A model generated the notes under the pieces. The model was not told where the DNA came from, did not search any database, and was given only the letters and a program-made list of their open reading frames with translations. Below are positions 1-25,060 of a stretch of 64,000 bases of DNA, piece after piece; positions within the stretch are counted from its first letter, which is position 1; each line of letters opens with the position of its first letter. The stretch is from Blastopirellula retiformator (GTDB lineage: Bacteria; Planctomycetota; Planctomycetia; Pirellulales; Pirellulaceae), in assembly GCF_007859755.1 (NCBI RefSeq), contig NZ_SJPF01000001.1, positions 1,042,082-1,106,081 of the forward strand. The letters run 5' to 3'. A program made the position numbers and the translations under genes.

Positions 1-64
1 GTCGTTATTTTGGGAGCGCATCCGTGCGATCACGCAGTCCGTCGAGAAAATCAACGGACTGTTA
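1..64. repeat. Partial copy of a multi-hairpin repeat, cut by the window edge
   Basis: These 64 bases match 24357-24420 with three or so substitutions. They contain the right arm of the AAAATAACGAC hairpin, a degenerate copy of the hairpin with loop TCCG (8-30 region), and the AGTCCGT/ACGGACT hairpin with an 11-nt loop. The last three bases (TTA) are the reverse complement of the stop codon of the peptidase gene on the minus strand, so the element begins at that stop codon, as the other copy does at 24418-24420. The left half lies outside the window. Confidence 0.85.
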
Positions 65-2236
65 TTCTTGAAGCGCCGCTTCCACGCCAGGGATGTCGGC
101 TGCGCCAGCAGGGATTTCGAGCTTGGCGCCGACAAACGCATCGCCAATCGGCTCGAAACGACCACCCAGGTTTTCGGCCAGGAAGGCTTCGGTGACTGCG
201 TTAAAGGCGAAGCGATTTTCCGGTTTCGCGAAACCATGCCCTTCTTCGGGGAACAGTACGTAAGTGACCGGAATTTTCTTCTCTTCCATCGCTTTGACGA
301 TCTGGTCGGCTTCGGCCTGTTTGACGCGGGGGTCGTTGGCGCCTTGGCCGATCAACAGCGGCTTGGTGATCTTGTCGACGAAGTTGAGCGGCGAACGTTC
401 GTTGAGGAACTTGATGCCTTCTTCGGTCTCGTGATCGCCCACTTTGTCTTTCATGACCGGCATAAAAGGCATCCAGTAGGGCGGAACGTTGTTGAGCAGC
501 GTGACCAAGCTCGACGGGCCGACGATGTCGACGCCGCAGCAGAATTTCTCTGGGGTGAAGGTCAGGCCAACCAGCGTCGCATAGCCGCCGTAGCTGCCGC
601 CCATGATGGCGACCTTGTCGGGGTCGGCGATACCTTCGGCGATCGCCCAGTCGACGGCGTCCAGCAAGTCGTCATGCATCTTGCCGGCCCACTCTTTGTT
701 GGCGGCGTTGAGAAAATCCTTGCCAAAACCGGTTGAACCCCGGTAGTTGACGCTGAGCACCGCATAGCCGCGATTGGCCAGCAATTGGTGCATTGGGTTG
801 AAGCCCCAATTGTCGCGAGCCCACGGGCCGCCGTGCACGTCCAGCACCAACGGCAGCGGTTGCGAAGGCTTCAGGCCGCCGTCGGGATTCGAGCCTTTCG
901 GCAGCGACAAATAGCTGACCAGCTTGAGACCGTCGCGGGCGTCGATCACGACCGGGTGCATCTTCACCAACGGCAATTCGGCCAACTCGGGTTGGCTGGA
1001 GAAGAGAAACTCCGCCTTCTTCTCTTCACCACGATGGTAGAGGTAGAAATCGATCGGGCCGTCATCGCGAATATAGGCGACAGTCCAGAGGTCGTCTTTC
1101 AAGGTGCGGCTGGTGACCTGGATTTCACCGTCCTGTTGTTCCTTCAGGAACGCCAGATCGGCTTCCAGCGACTTGTCGAGGATATCCCATTCTTGCCGCT
1201 CGTAGTTGAACGCAACCGCTTGGATCGTCTTCTCGGTCGGGTGCGTCAGCACGCCCGAGATATCGGCCTTGTCGTTTTCGGCAATCAGTTTCTCTTCGCC
1301 GGTCTTCAGGTCGAGCGACTTGAGGGCGGCCGTGTTGCGTTCGCGGCTGTCAAATAAATAGGCGACGTCGCCGCTCTTGTCGAAGCCAGCGATCCCGGTC
1401 GTCATGGCGTCGGCCGCGTCGATTTTCAGGAACTCTTTCCAGTCTTGCTTGCCGTCGGTTTCGGTCGGCGTCAGGTACAACTGTCCGGCGTCGGGCGTGT
1501 AGGTCATCGCGAAGCGAACTTTGTAGTTGTCGTCGGTCAGGAACCCGGCGAAACCAGGGTTTTCTTGTAGCAGCTCTTTTTCGCCCGTCTCGACGTTCAG
1601 ACGATAGATATCATGCAACTGTGGATTGCGATCGTTCAGGCCGACCAGAATTTCGTTGGGGAACAGGTCGCTGACGTTGTCGATCTCGGCGCGGATGTTC
1701 TCCAGCGGCGTCAGGTCTTTGATTTCATCGGTCGACAGGTTGACGGCGTAGACGTGGAAGTTTTCGTCCCCGTCTTTGTCTTGCGTATAGAGGACGTGGT
1801 TGTTGGTGTACGACCAGCTAAAGCTGCGAATGCCGCGATGGGTGTCTTTGGTGATCGGCTTGGCGTCTTTGCCCAGCGACTGAGTCGAGCCGACCCAGAC
1901 GTTAAGCACGCCGTCGACCGGCGCCAGGTAAGCGAGCTTCGTTCCGTCAGGGCTCAAGCGGGCTCGGGCTTTTTCGGGGTTGCCAAAAAACTTGCGGCGA
2001 GGAATCAACGGCACGGCGCTCATATCAAAAGCTTCCTTGTCTGTCGCGGTCGTTTCGGGCTTCATCTCTGGTTTTCCTTCCGCCGGTTTCGCTTCTTCGC
2101 CGAGCGAGACTTCCGGCGTGCTGACGTTGTTCGCCGGAGCGGTCGTCTTTTCGGGGGCTGGAGTACAGCCAGCTAGCCAGGCGAGCGCCGCCACGCCAAA
2201 AGCGAGCGAACAGAGATGCCGTTGCAGAGCGATCAT
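62..2236 (-). CDS. S9 family prolyl oligopeptidase-type lipoprotein
   Basis: A 724-residue serine peptidase of the prolyl oligopeptidase / dipeptidyl aminopeptidase family, expected to cleave peptides outside the cytoplasm. The N-terminus has a hydrophobic stretch ending in a lipobox (LAGC, residues 21-24), so it is probably a lipoprotein. A beta-propeller-like region fills roughly residues 60-440. The C-terminal alpha/beta-hydrolase domain shows the nucleophile motif GGSYGG (Ser about 548), a later GANDPRV Asp motif and an EEGHGF His motif, giving a complete Ser-Asp-His triad. An AAGGGA ribosome binding site precedes the ATG at 2236. It appears to be a single-gene unit ending directly at a structured repeat (1-64) that may terminate transcription. 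Confidence 0.93.
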   Translation of the reverse strand: MIALQRHLCSLAFGVAALAWLAGCTPAPEKTTAPANNVSTPEVSLGEEAKPAEGKPEMKPETTATDKEAFDMSAVPLIPRRKFFGNPEKARARLSPDGTKLAYLAPVDGVLNVWVGSTQSLGKDAKPITKDTHRGIRSFSWSYTNNHVLYTQDKDGDENFHVYAVNLSTDEIKDLTPLENIRAEIDNVSDLFPNEILVGLNDRNPQLHDIYRLNVETGEKELLQENPGFAGFLTDDNYKVRFAMTYTPDAGQLYLTPTETDGKQDWKEFLKIDAADAMTTGIAGFDKSGDVAYLFDSRERNTAALKSLDLKTGEEKLIAENDKADISGVLTHPTEKTIQAVAFNYERQEWDILDKSLEADLAFLKEQQDGEIQVTSRTLKDDLWTVAYIRDDGPIDFYLYHRGEEKKAEFLFSSQPELAELPLVKMHPVVIDARDGLKLVSYLSLPKGSNPDGGLKPSQPLPLVLDVHGGPWARDNWGFNPMHQLLANRGYAVLSVNYRGSTGFGKDFLNAANKEWAGKMHDDLLDAVDWAIAEGIADPDKVAIMGGSYGGYATLVGLTFTPEKFCCGVDIVGPSSLVTLLNNVPPYWMPFMPVMKDKVGDHETEEGIKFLNERSPLNFVDKITKPLLIGQGANDPRVKQAEADQIVKAMEEKKIPVTYVLFPEEGHGFAKPENRFAFNAVTEAFLAENLGGRFEPIGDAFVGAKLEIPAGAADIPGVEAALQE

Positions 2237-10317: not shown

Positions 10318-11154
10318 CTACAGTTTCGTCAGTTGTCCGCTTAGATGAACGAGATCTTCGGCAGTCGCCTTCATGCCGGTGATGATGGTCGATTGCTCTT
10401 CGATCGCCGCGCCGACGTAGTTTTGCTGGGAGTCGAAGACCGGATGCACCATCAGTTCGATCGTTTCGGGGCCCAGCGGGAACTGCGTTTTCACCGGCAG
10501 GTTGTTCGGGTCAGCCAGCAGACGGCGCTGATGGAATTGATCGATCTCGGCGCCAACAATTTGATCGACGGAAATCGGCAGCAGGCCGCGCAGCTTCGTC
10601 AGCGTCTCGCGGGATGATCGGTTGATGTAGAGAATGACCAGGTCGCGATCCGCGAACATGACGTTCAGCGGGATATTGTCGAGCATGTAAGCCGCTTGAT
10701 CTGTCGATTGTTTATCGCCTACCAGCTGCGTGATGTCGTTCAAGATAGCGACGATTTTCGTCGGCCGCCCATCGGCGCCCAGGAGAGGATTGTAGACGCC
10801 TTGTAAATGGAGAGGGCGACCGTGCTTGGTGATGTATGGGAATTGTTCCTCGACCGCCTGGCCCAGGCGAAGCGATTCCCAGCAGCGGGCGAAATTCGGC
10901 GAATCGGCCTGTTCGGAATCGAGCAGGAAGCGATGGTTCCGTCCTTCGATTTCGCCGAGTCGATATCCAGCCAAGTGCAGTAATTTTTCGTTGGCGGAGA
11001 GGATCGTCCCTTCAAGCGAGAATTCGACAATCGTGGTCGAGCGACGCACCGCATCGGAGAAACCGCGGGGCTCGTGATATTCGGAATTGGAGAGGGGCGT
11101 TTCGGTCTCCGATCGCGTCGACGAAAACCAACGAGATGCGATTATTCCCAACAT
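10318..11154 (-). CDS. PAS-PAS sensor protein without an output domain
   Basis: A 278-residue protein with two PAS domains. PAS 1 (about residues 38-145) shows STTIVEFSLEGTILSANEKL and a PAC-like end (PTKIVAILNDIT). PAS 2 (about 158-260) shows MLDNIPLNVMFADRDLVILY. The architecture matches the sensory half of planctomycete PAS-PAS methyl-accepting proteins, but the protein stops at TAEDLVHLSGQLTKL with no MCP signalling, kinase or GGDEF domain, and a terminator follows at once. It may be a stand-alone ligand sensor or a truncated chemoreceptor. The N-terminus lacks a signal peptide, so it is probably cytoplasmic. Confidence 0.78.
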   Translation of the reverse strand: MLGIIASRWFSSTRSETETPLSNSEYHEPRGFSDAVRRSTTIVEFSLEGTILSANEKLLHLAGYRLGEIEGRNHRFLLDSEQADSPNFARCWESLRLGQAVEEQFPYITKHGRPLHLQGVYNPLLGADGRPTKIVAILNDITQLVGDKQSTDQAAYMLDNIPLNVMFADRDLVILYINRSSRETLTKLRGLLPISVDQIVGAEIDQFHQRRLLADPNNLPVKTQFPLGPETIELMVHPVFDSQQNYVGAAIEEQSTIITGMKATAEDLVHLSGQLTKL

Positions 11155-11370
11155 TTCATTCCATTTTTTAGATCACTGCAGCAGAGAGAGGGGGGCTACG
11201 GGATGCAATCCGTTTGACGTGACAGGACGCACGGAGATATATGGAACCCAAATGCCAGTAAGGCGATGAGCGTCTGCGGAATTCTGGCCAATTTGCACGA
11301 CTTCGCGGTTCGTGTGCGAAGAAATGCGCACGACCCTTAGAGAGCCGTCGAGTCGTACCGAATATTCCGG

Positions 11371-23693: not shown

Positions 23694-23960
23694 CTAAGCG
23701 ATCGTGCAGAAGTCGTGTTCGCGAGTTTCCGTCAGCTCGTGCGACGGATCAATACGCGAAATGTGATCTTCGTCGTGCGTCAGCAAGATGGGAAGTTCGA
23801 TTTCGGAGGTGGGACGCGGTTTGGGGGGAGGAGAGTGCCAGGCGCCTCGGCAACTGAAGCGAGACATGCAACCGGTGCAGGGAGAGATGGCGACGCCGTC
23901 ACTAGTAAACTGCTGTCCGCAGAACGGATGCAGTTGGACGGATACGGTCGATTGGCTCAT
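23694..23960 (-). CDS. Small Cys-motif protein, paralogue A
   Basis: An 88-residue protein starting MSQSTVSVQLHPFCGQQ. It carries four Cys in the pattern C-x13-C-x2-C-x5-C, the last part reading SPCTGCMSRFSCRG. The gene at 24418-24660 has the same spacing and nearly the same core (SPCDGCMSRFSCRG), so the two are paralogues. The spacing suggests binding of one zinc ion or an Fe-S cluster; this is inference. The C-terminal half is acidic, His-containing and probably flexible. The ATG at 23960 is preceded by GGGAG. No named family recognised. Confidence 0.72.
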   Translation of the reverse strand: MSQSTVSVQLHPFCGQQFTSDGVAISPCTGCMSRFSCRGAWHSPPPKPRPTSEIELPILLTHDEDHISRIDPSHELTETREHDFCTIA

Positions 23961-24270
23961 ACGCTCCCTTTCCAGGCATAGGCAGGACCAGCGGCGGTGC
24001 AATAGCCATCTGGCTACTCATCTATAGCTTGCCGTTGTGCGCATGCAGCGCCGAGGTGCTGAATTTCTGCAGGGATGCGGTAAGTAGAAAATTGCCAGAA
24101 CGGCAATACTTTTGCTCGAAGAACGAGCCCTGAATCGGCGCTCCTTGATGAGTGGAGCAGGCCCGCGGCGGGGAAGGGGAGAGAAGTTCGTGAAACGATC
24201 CATAGGCAAAGCCGAAGTTGCTTCGACGATTCGCCCCTTCCCAGAAAAACAGTGGCGAAGACGCTTAGCT
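23961..24270. other. Gap between the paralogues, left of the repeat
   Basis: About 310 bases before the structured repeat. Frames read through it on the minus strand but have no convincing start, ribosome binding site or family likeness. A short inverted repeat (TTGCCAGAACGGCAA, near 24093-24107) is present. The promoter of paralogue A should lie here. I see no RNA gene. Confidence 0.5.
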
Positions 24271-24420
24271 GCCTGTTGAAAAATGCCATCGTGGCATTTT
24301 CCAACCTCGCCGGGCTCAGAGCATAGCTCTTCGCGGCTCGCAAAATAACGACTTACGTCGTTATTTTGGGATCGCATCCGTGCGATCGCGTAGTCCGTCG
24401 AGAAAATCAACGGACTGTTA
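24271..24420. repeat. 150-bp multi-hairpin repeat element (complete copy)
   Basis: Five hairpins in a row: TTGAAAAATGCCA/TGGCATTTTCCAA with loop TCG (24276-24304, one mismatch); AGAGC/GCTCT (24318-24330); CAAAATAACGAC/GTCGTTATTTTG with loop TTAC (24341-24368); GATCGCA/TGCGATC with loop TCCG (24370-24387); AGTCCGT/ACGGACT with an 11-nt loop (24392-24416). The last three bases are the stop codon of the minus-strand gene that starts at 24660. The right 64 bases recur at 1-64, again at a stop codon. No protein is encoded. The left boundary is estimated from the first hairpin. A copied, structured 3'-UTR element (terminator, processing site or REP-like mobile unit) is the likely nature. Confidence 0.85.
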
Positions 24421-24660
24421 GGCGATCGACGAGTGAACTTCGTGGGCCGCACTAACGCGAGTCGATTGGTCGCCGCTGGAGGCGAGTCGAAACGGGGGCA
24501 AAGTGGCCGAAGCGGTCGATTTTTTCGCGGTCGTGAGGCCGCAACCTCGGCAGCTGAAACGCGACATGCAGCCGTCACAAGGGCTGTAGGCGGCCGCCAA
24601 AGGAGCGCCGACGCGGGTGCAAAAGAACGGCTGGCGGTCGCCGGTGGTGGAATGGGTCAT
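24418..24660 (-). CDS. Small Cys-motif protein, paralogue B
   Basis: An 80-residue protein starting MTHSTTGDRQPFFCTRV, with the same C-x13-C-x2-C-x5-C pattern as the gene at 23694 and the shared core SPCDGCMSRFSCRG, followed by an additional Cys (RGCG). The C-terminal half is Ser/Thr/Ala-rich and probably disordered. Both proteins end in a similar His-containing tail. AGAGGG precedes the ATG at 24660; an in-frame ATG at 24678 would add six residues. The stop codon coincides with the edge of the structured repeat. Function unknown; metal binding is likely from the Cys spacing. Confidence 0.72.
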   Translation of the reverse strand: MTHSTTGDRQPFFCTRVGAPLAAAYSPCDGCMSRFSCRGCGLTTAKKSTASATLPPFRLASSGDQSTRVSAAHEVHSSIA

Positions 24661-25060
24661 GATTTCCCTCTCGTACATGTGAGAGGCCGCGGCGCATTTG
24701 GCTGATTCTGAAGGGCTTTTCCCGCAGAAACAGATGCCGGCGACCCCTAATTCAAACGTGGTCCCAAAATCCGACATCCAAATGGCCAGTACGACAATTC
24801 CGCCTCTTGGCGAACTAGCGATTTCTTTTGGATCTAAACGTCCACTTTACCAAATGTTCGGCGTAGTAAAAGAGAAAAACGAAGAACATCAATGAAGATT
24901 GCTTGCGGCGAATAATTGCGATTAGAATGACGAATCTCCCCTGATTATGGTAGCTAAGGCTCTGTTCTTTTGACGGTCTAGGATTGGCGGCGAGTCGCCG
25001 ACCGTGAAATTCACCTTGTACCAACAACTTCCCTCTTGATGACGACAGGCCGGGCAGGGC
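24661..25060. other. Intergenic region between paralogue B and the ECF/kinase pair
   Basis: About 400 bases between divergent genes. A 65-codon plus-strand frame at 24698-24895 has no ribosome binding site or family likeness and is not accepted. The right part has an AT-rich block near 24830-24930 and a perfect CGGCGA/TCGCCG inverted repeat (24988-25000) about 60 bp before the sigma-factor start, which could be a regulator site. No confident promoter boxes were found. Confidence 0.5.

Follow-up and report, generated by a model that had tools for sequence, protein, structure and literature searches.

A 149-bp repeat of Blastopirellula retiformator has the ends, target-site duplications and copy number of a MITE, together with an interior of five hairpins whose architecture recurs in eight families of the order and varies there by compensatory change. 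We came upon it in the 64,000-nucleotide stretch of DNA analyzed here (the window). Our preferred reading, held with about even confidence, is that this MITE is moved by an IS1182-like transposase and carries a conserved structured RNA domain bound through its fourth hairpin, H4, by CsrA-family proteins.

Comparison of 50 distinct copies from the same genome (the home genome) set the repeat unit at 24269-24417, with TTAG on both sides (Table 1). The preliminary description of this DNA had reported a 150-bp element at 24271-24420; the element is confirmed, its limits moved to those given here. The same description had the right 64 bases recurring at 1-64, which holds for the recurrence itself, over 61 bases (1-61). 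Copies go far beyond these two. With up to 3 mismatches, the last hairpin, at the right end, gave 289 matches (150 + 139) in the 6,196,617-base assembly, where the reversed pattern gave 0, and a degenerate core pattern gave 250 in the home genome. In 1.2 Mb of contig we located 65 places, 32 on the + and 33 on the - strand, 46 of them full length. Short, non-coding and present in many copies, the unit has the properties of a MITE, with imperfect terminal inverted repeats of about 11 bp (C[A/T]GCCTGTTGA / CAGTCCGTTGA). Three copies (C1:131810, C1:152404 and C1:248720) have the same H3 deletion, with its junction at the short repeat TCGCA, which is either recurrent slippage or a small subfamily. 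The ORFs that flank the window copy, 23694-24002 (-) and 24418-24777 (-), have CMSRFSCRG in common and look like paralogues.

Table 1. Features of the element and of its second copy in the window.
Feature	Coordinates	Strand	Remarks
Left target-site duplication TTAG	24265-24268		Duplication identical in 35/46 full copies
Complete 149-bp MITE	24269-24417	-	Strand is the sense of the putative structured RNA; from copy comparison and structure
Left terminal repeat, also 5' arm of hairpin H1	24269-24287		
Hairpin H1	24275-24305	-	Loop ACGAN on - in most copies
H2 and closing helix	24306-24339	-	CGAGCC / GGCGAG on -, tandem G.A
Hairpin H3	24341-24368	-	GNRA loop GUAA at 24353-24356 on -
Hairpin H4	24370-24387	-	Loop ACGGAU at 24376-24381 on -; candidate CsrA/RsmE-type site
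Hairpin H5	24391-24417	-	Formed by right terminal repeat (CAGTCCGTTGA on -)
Right target-site duplication TTAG	24418-24421		Includes TAA stop of ORF 24418-24777 (-)
Second copy, right part only	1-61	-	Remainder left of window edge
Second copy's right target-site duplication TTAT	62-65		Includes stop of called gene 62-2236 (-)

The repeat had been called mobile, and its target-site duplications support this. The 4-bp flanks, mostly YTAR, are identical in 35 of the 46 full copies, whereas shuffling gave 9.4 on average and 18 at most. For gene context we took these 46 and not the 19 partial places; gene calls came from our own dicodon script, in which the ORF beside the window copy is absent. No copy among the 46 falls within a called gene, versus 2232 of 4015 YTAR sites, and the duplication coincides with a stop codon in 21 of the 46, versus 346 of 1783 other extragenic YTAR sites (binomial P = 5e-5). 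The simplest account is that TAA and TAG stops match the YTAR target and that insertion there causes little damage. Orientation at the abutted stops is unbiased (H5 next to the stop in 9 copies and H1 in 12, counted among the 46), and therefore selection for sense transcription does not show. Shorter derivatives in the same genome, down to 26 bp, also lie between YTAR-like flanks.

The ends point to a likely type of transposase. The home genome has a 5'-truncated transposase gene with the domains PF05598, PF01609 and PF13751; we take transposases with the first two to be IS1182-like. Its right end, CAGCCCGTTGAAC, adjoins CTAG. We fetched 30 IS1182-like loci in the bacterial family and scanned 14 of them for ends; 12 had YTAR plus CAGC..GTTGA at both ends, and by our own reading only 5 of those 12 had identical 4-bp flanks. 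The element thus matches the IS1182 family in flank and ends, within the same family of bacteria, except for CTG in place of CAG at the left of most home copies. Unlike the IS, it is too short, at 149 bp, for a DDE transposase gene, and blastn of its interior against the 30 IS loci returned the ends and short words only (E of 0.15 or more), so that we rejected derivation from the IS by internal deletion. A GGA hexaloop hairpin of at least 5 bp was found inside 0 of 12 IS. Relatives of the truncated gene in the home genome were that gene itself and a fragment. L083, an open frame of 434 aa that shares the Pfam domains of the truncated gene, had no such ends at up to 2 mismatches in a YTAR setting; the only matching ends near it belong to a neighboring copy of the element. 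We infer that the element depends on the IS1182 family without being a member of it, the transposase being supplied in trans.

Five stems lying end to end had been proposed for the repeat, and all were recovered where they had been placed, the stem proper of H2 being 24318-24330. Predicted folding is well below that of 200 dinucleotide shuffles, none of which folded as low, both for 24265-24425 on the + strand (z = -6.2) and for 24269-24417 on the - strand (z = -8.1). Rfam 15 returned no family at gathering score within the window, nor over the element in 24 loci (one of which, L082, is without the element) searched with E up to 1. The sole match that overlapped the element in those 24 loci was a sub-threshold hit to ncS035 in L252, at 20.9 of 79 bits. 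An intrinsic terminator was considered and rejected, as no T run follows either end in the copies read.

Compensatory change argues that this architecture has been kept. We aligned 33 elements chosen for complete ends, 27 from the 40 order-level loci and 6 from the home genus (alignment A3, two rows of which include some flank). Counts from A3 are without H4 because MAFFT misplaced that hairpin. In A3, 95.0% of cells pair (shuffled, 85.7%; partners slid by 1 to 3 columns, 34 to 43%), 20 pairs changed on both sides (shuffled, 12.7), 122 cells did so (shuffled, 35.7; slid partners, at most 19), and covariation was 0.293 (shuffled, 0.130; slid partners, at most 0.074). None of 500 shuffles reached any of these four values. 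The fifth measure, further pair types, stayed at the shuffled level (45 versus 42.9), with 108 of 500 shuffles as high. A hairpin-by-hairpin count that includes H4 gave double changes at 42 of 43 pairs and Watson-Crick pairing in 1394 of 1629 cells versus about 850 after shuffling; it picks hairpins by maximal Watson-Crick pairing, which favors pairing, whereas the shuffles are made without that choice, and 9 of the 59 elements gave no H3 or H4 loop. All of these counts ignore phylogeny. They support retention of the five-hairpin interior by compensatory change, above controls on four of five measures. Thus the idea of a repeated structured RNA element proved largely right: copies are many, and the lack of covariation that would have spoken against it was not what aligned copies displayed.

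Covariance searches extended the interior well beyond the home genome. Model R1, built from 14 sequences, found it in the family (10 of 241 genomes) and in the class (21 of 397). For the order, model R2, built on the - strand from 33 sequences, gave 44 of 396 genomes and 24 of 144 genera, a few matches being weak. Copy numbers from these searches are minima, because 7 to 15 candidates were scored per genome. Of 40 loci read from other families, 32 had both ends recognized, 29 of them 148 to 152 bp long and three 137 to 140 bp; 15 of the 32 have identical duplications, and 8 further loci of the 40 are without a recognized right end. The architecture is common to eight families (f1, f4, f5, f7, f8, f13, f16 and f17). 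A weak match in f2 (L354) was taken as false, as transposon ends were absent. We also read twelve loci of a distinct type, called f9-type, with units of about 119 bp and a divergent middle, in which the ends and the GGA loop are kept and the same YTAN stands on both sides in 6 of 12 (by eye). At one of the f9-type loci (L335, genome G733), two elements lie in direct tandem, with starts 123 bp apart.

A different setting was met in genus g43, where 5 of 9 genomes carry a single copy inside a long tRNA array, with tRNA-Val on one side and tRNA-Asp on the other (ARAGORN called the first of these tRNA-Cys in two genomes). The stems covary in these copies, and transposon ends are not recognized. 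The window's + strand runs along the tRNAs, so that an RNA from the - strand would be antisense to the array. Three of the nine genomes have that tRNA spacer without the core, and one was left undecided. In at least one genome the core-less spacer keeps an H1-like hairpin; because loss and never-inserted are then indistinguishable, we did not count empty spacers as movement. The g43 copies may be an old insertion or a domestication. An origin as an RNA of the tRNA array was dropped once class and order searches gave transposon-flanked copies in other families. Arrays of 10 to 19 tRNA genes in about 3 kb occur at L087, L089, L090, L091, L092, L209, L210 and L212 of g43; similar ones are found in the home genus (L218 and L219), and spacer lengths differ between species.

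Several features support assigning the structured RNA to the reverse-complement (-) strand: the consensus energy, an excess of wobble-type mismatches, GNRA loops and a tandem G.A helix. Neither this strand nor the conserved loops had been part of the preliminary description. The consensus folds at -50.7 kcal/mol on the - strand versus -28.7 on the + strand. Isolated mismatches read on the + strand are A.C (i.e., G.U on the - strand) rather than G.U by 53 to 16 in raw counts and by 31 to 14 when collapsed by genome (P = 0.016), whereas rare within-genome changes, our neutral yardstick, are balanced at 11 to 13; the contrast between collapsed and rare mismatches is only suggestive (Fisher P = 0.075). 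The propagated mismatch types of A.C or G.U kind number four, all A.C. Alignment A2, of 14 chosen sequences, was balanced when folded on the + strand (G.U versus A.C, 16 to 14, own count). The H3 loop is GUAA or GCAA in 29 of 50 loops found in 59 elements, and is of GNRA type on the - strand only. Under H2, CGAGCC and GGCGAG are both exact in 34 of 58 elements and would place tandem G.A pairs inside a G-C helix, which is a stable RNA motif. In genomes G424 and G592 this helix is CGAGCC / GGCTCG, with full Watson-Crick pairing.

The H4 loop, read on the same strand, carries GGA in 44 of 50 loops found (59 elements examined), although every pair of its stem varies. It is usually A(N)GGA, and CANGGATG occurs in 76 of 83 distinct home copies, the variable base N being C in 42, G in 25, T in 8 and A in 1. 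We then applied a strict rule, namely A, an optional N, GGA and N closed by 4 Watson-Crick pairs, to 58 elements (40 loci from other families, 13 from the genus and 5 from g43). The loop was present on the - strand in 40 of 58 elements, 7 of 12 f9-type ones and 6 of 7 further ones, versus 1, 0 and 0 on the other strand; background over the whole contig, elements included, is 0.008 per 150 nt. When the 64 loop triplets were ranked, GGA came up in 24 of 34 genomes and CGA, from H1, in 13, and the next ten listed in 3 or fewer. Two strict sites in one element were seen in 1 of 58, 0 of 12 and 0 of 7. The H1 loop is usually CGA, not GGA; by eye, many f9-type loci also have GGA there.

A GGA hexaloop on a stem is the arrangement of the CsrB/RsmZ small RNAs and of CsrA/RsmE target hairpins. 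The H4 loop of the window copy, ACGGAU, is that of the hcnA hairpin solved with RsmE, as given in the available part of the report (PMC4005645). The accessible text of PMC7652899 gives RUACARGGAUGU as the CsrA SELEX consensus and ANGGAN hexaloops as high-affinity RsmE sites, and adds that very stable stems may lower CsrA affinity. Unlike CsrB/RsmZ, the element usually has one canonical candidate site and is transposon-borne. We checked 19 genomes that had R1 matches, and every one has CsrA domains, 4 to 14 in number, which is a precondition rather than a correlation; the control for this search found csrA in 3 of 14 well-known genomes. The home genome has 13 CsrA-domain matches, and among ten of these regions that we read, two, at C3:867596 and C3:895634, have the canonical core VHR(R/Q)EVY. 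The structured RNA domain is probably a CsrA-family ligand. Two of the home matches belong to open frames 277 and 264 aa long, and the home ORF L314 has two CsrA-like segments.

The same conservation could instead act at the DNA level, if the transposase recognized folded single-stranded or cruciform DNA, so that the loops were a DNA-binding code and RNA irrelevant. The terminal repeat itself makes up H5, the window genome has palindromes of H5 or H1 alone between YTAR-like flanks, and tandem G.A pairs can form in DNA too. A precedent is IS1272, a member of the IS1182 family that targets stem-loops and replaces them; the part of PMC5678879 available reports no duplication for it, in contrast to these elements. 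Against a DNA code, the interior has no counterpart in the 30 IS loci beyond the short words noted above, and derivatives of 26 to 27 bp keep YTAR-like flanks; unless these lost sequence once inserted, the interior would seem dispensable. The GGA hexaloop, the GNRA loop and the wobble excess are moreover RNA-type features of one strand. We regard a DNA-level role as unlikely, though it deserves serious attention. It is quite improbable, in our view, that the element is a plain MITE with unselected structure, its stems matched by quasipalindrome correction through template switching. The stems are indeed long near-perfect palindromes, and double changes appear at 17 of 36 pairs already in the 14-sequence, one-family set; however, correction predicts neither the conserved loops, nor a strand-specific excess of wobble-type mismatches, nor the swap from CGAGCC/GGCGAG to CGAGCC/GGCTCG.

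The g43 genomes, in five of which a single copy lies between one particular pair of tRNA genes, its stems covarying and its ends not recognized, would suit a host-domesticated regulatory RNA gene that is multicopy by chance. We find this very unlikely, given that copies in the window genome are dispersed, duplication-flanked and even on the strands, that identical duplications also flank loci of other families, and that part of the core is lost in 2 of the 5 g43 copies. Finally, the suggestion of a REP-like unit was not borne out. A REP, BIME or REPIN moved by a RAYT would likewise be palindromic, intergenic and of high copy number, yet the element is 149 bp long rather than a tagged palindrome of 20 to 40 bp, has five different hairpins and IS1182-like ends, and makes 4-bp duplications; on ends, length and duplications we rejected this class, which we consider to have hardly any chance of being right. 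GTAG/CGTC-tagged REPs, palindromic repeats reported from Planctomycetes too, are 20- to 40-bp units with a tag according to the portion of PMC3733652 available, an architecture unlike that of the element.

Under our preferred reading, that of a MITE with a CsrA-bound RNA domain, an IS1182-like DDE transposase acting in trans would recognize the ends and insert the element at YTAR, often at stop codons, with a 4-bp duplication. A copy transcribed in the - sense, e.g., by read-through of a gene whose stop it abuts, would yield an RNA of five hairpins in the order H5, H4 with GGA, H3 of GNRA type, H2 on the tandem G.A helix, and H1. Of the several CsrA-family proteins in the host, one or more may then bind the H4 loop, and if so, the copies would form a dispersed set of CsrA sites. 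Such binding might protect the host transcript, titrate CsrA for the element, or dampen the cost of insertion.

The interior of bacterial MITEs is usually regarded as an unimportant IS remnant. Here, compensatory change appears to have kept it across families, and it displays the type of loop that a global RNA-binding regulator recognizes; these hosts have multiple copies of that regulator's domain. Should the binding hold, it would offer a transposon route for spreading regulatory RNA sites, and the many csrA-like genes of these bacteria would gain a concrete candidate ligand. Prokaryotic MITEs such as Correia, ERIC, QMITE and Chunjie are likewise short, non-coding and intergenic, with terminal repeats, a duplication, high copy number and folding transcripts (PMC10969869, from the part available). 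Unlike them, the element keeps one covarying multi-hairpin architecture in its interior over eight families of an order, a case not described in that part of the review. The highly conserved domains reported for eukaryotic SINEs (PMC6887750) show mobile elements keeping one internal domain over deep lineages; unlike SINEs, the element has DNA-transposon ends and resides in bacteria, and reverse transcription is not implied. We tentatively propose, as something possible rather than probable, that the element is to bacteria what a SINE with a conserved domain is to eukaryotes, namely a MITE found across the order and carrying a CsrA-binding RNA as cargo. Its about 250 to 290 home copies would then make up a genome-wide network of CsrA sites that can transpose and is linked to an unusually large csrA paralogue set, and transposition would rewire posttranscriptional regulation. 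The literature matches listed, mostly without subscription journals, include no CsrA-binding MITE by name and no MITE family from these bacteria.

Searches outside the genomes gave no match for the window element in plasmids or for the element of genome G334 in phages. Of two contig scans, one found none and the other found 5 stretches in 3 Planctomycetota MAGs. On viral contig L238, the stretch 11120-11262 ends within a copy of the element, with CTAG before the H5 end. In G334 (L244), the element at 488-636 precedes the RNase P RNA gene, which starts at 841, by about 200 bp. On contig C1, an insertion sequence, presumably IS4-like by its motif, occupies an identical position in the H1 loop of two copies of the element, each time with a 13-bp duplication (TGCCCTCGTGGCA), and is a hairpin-targeting guest of the MITE.
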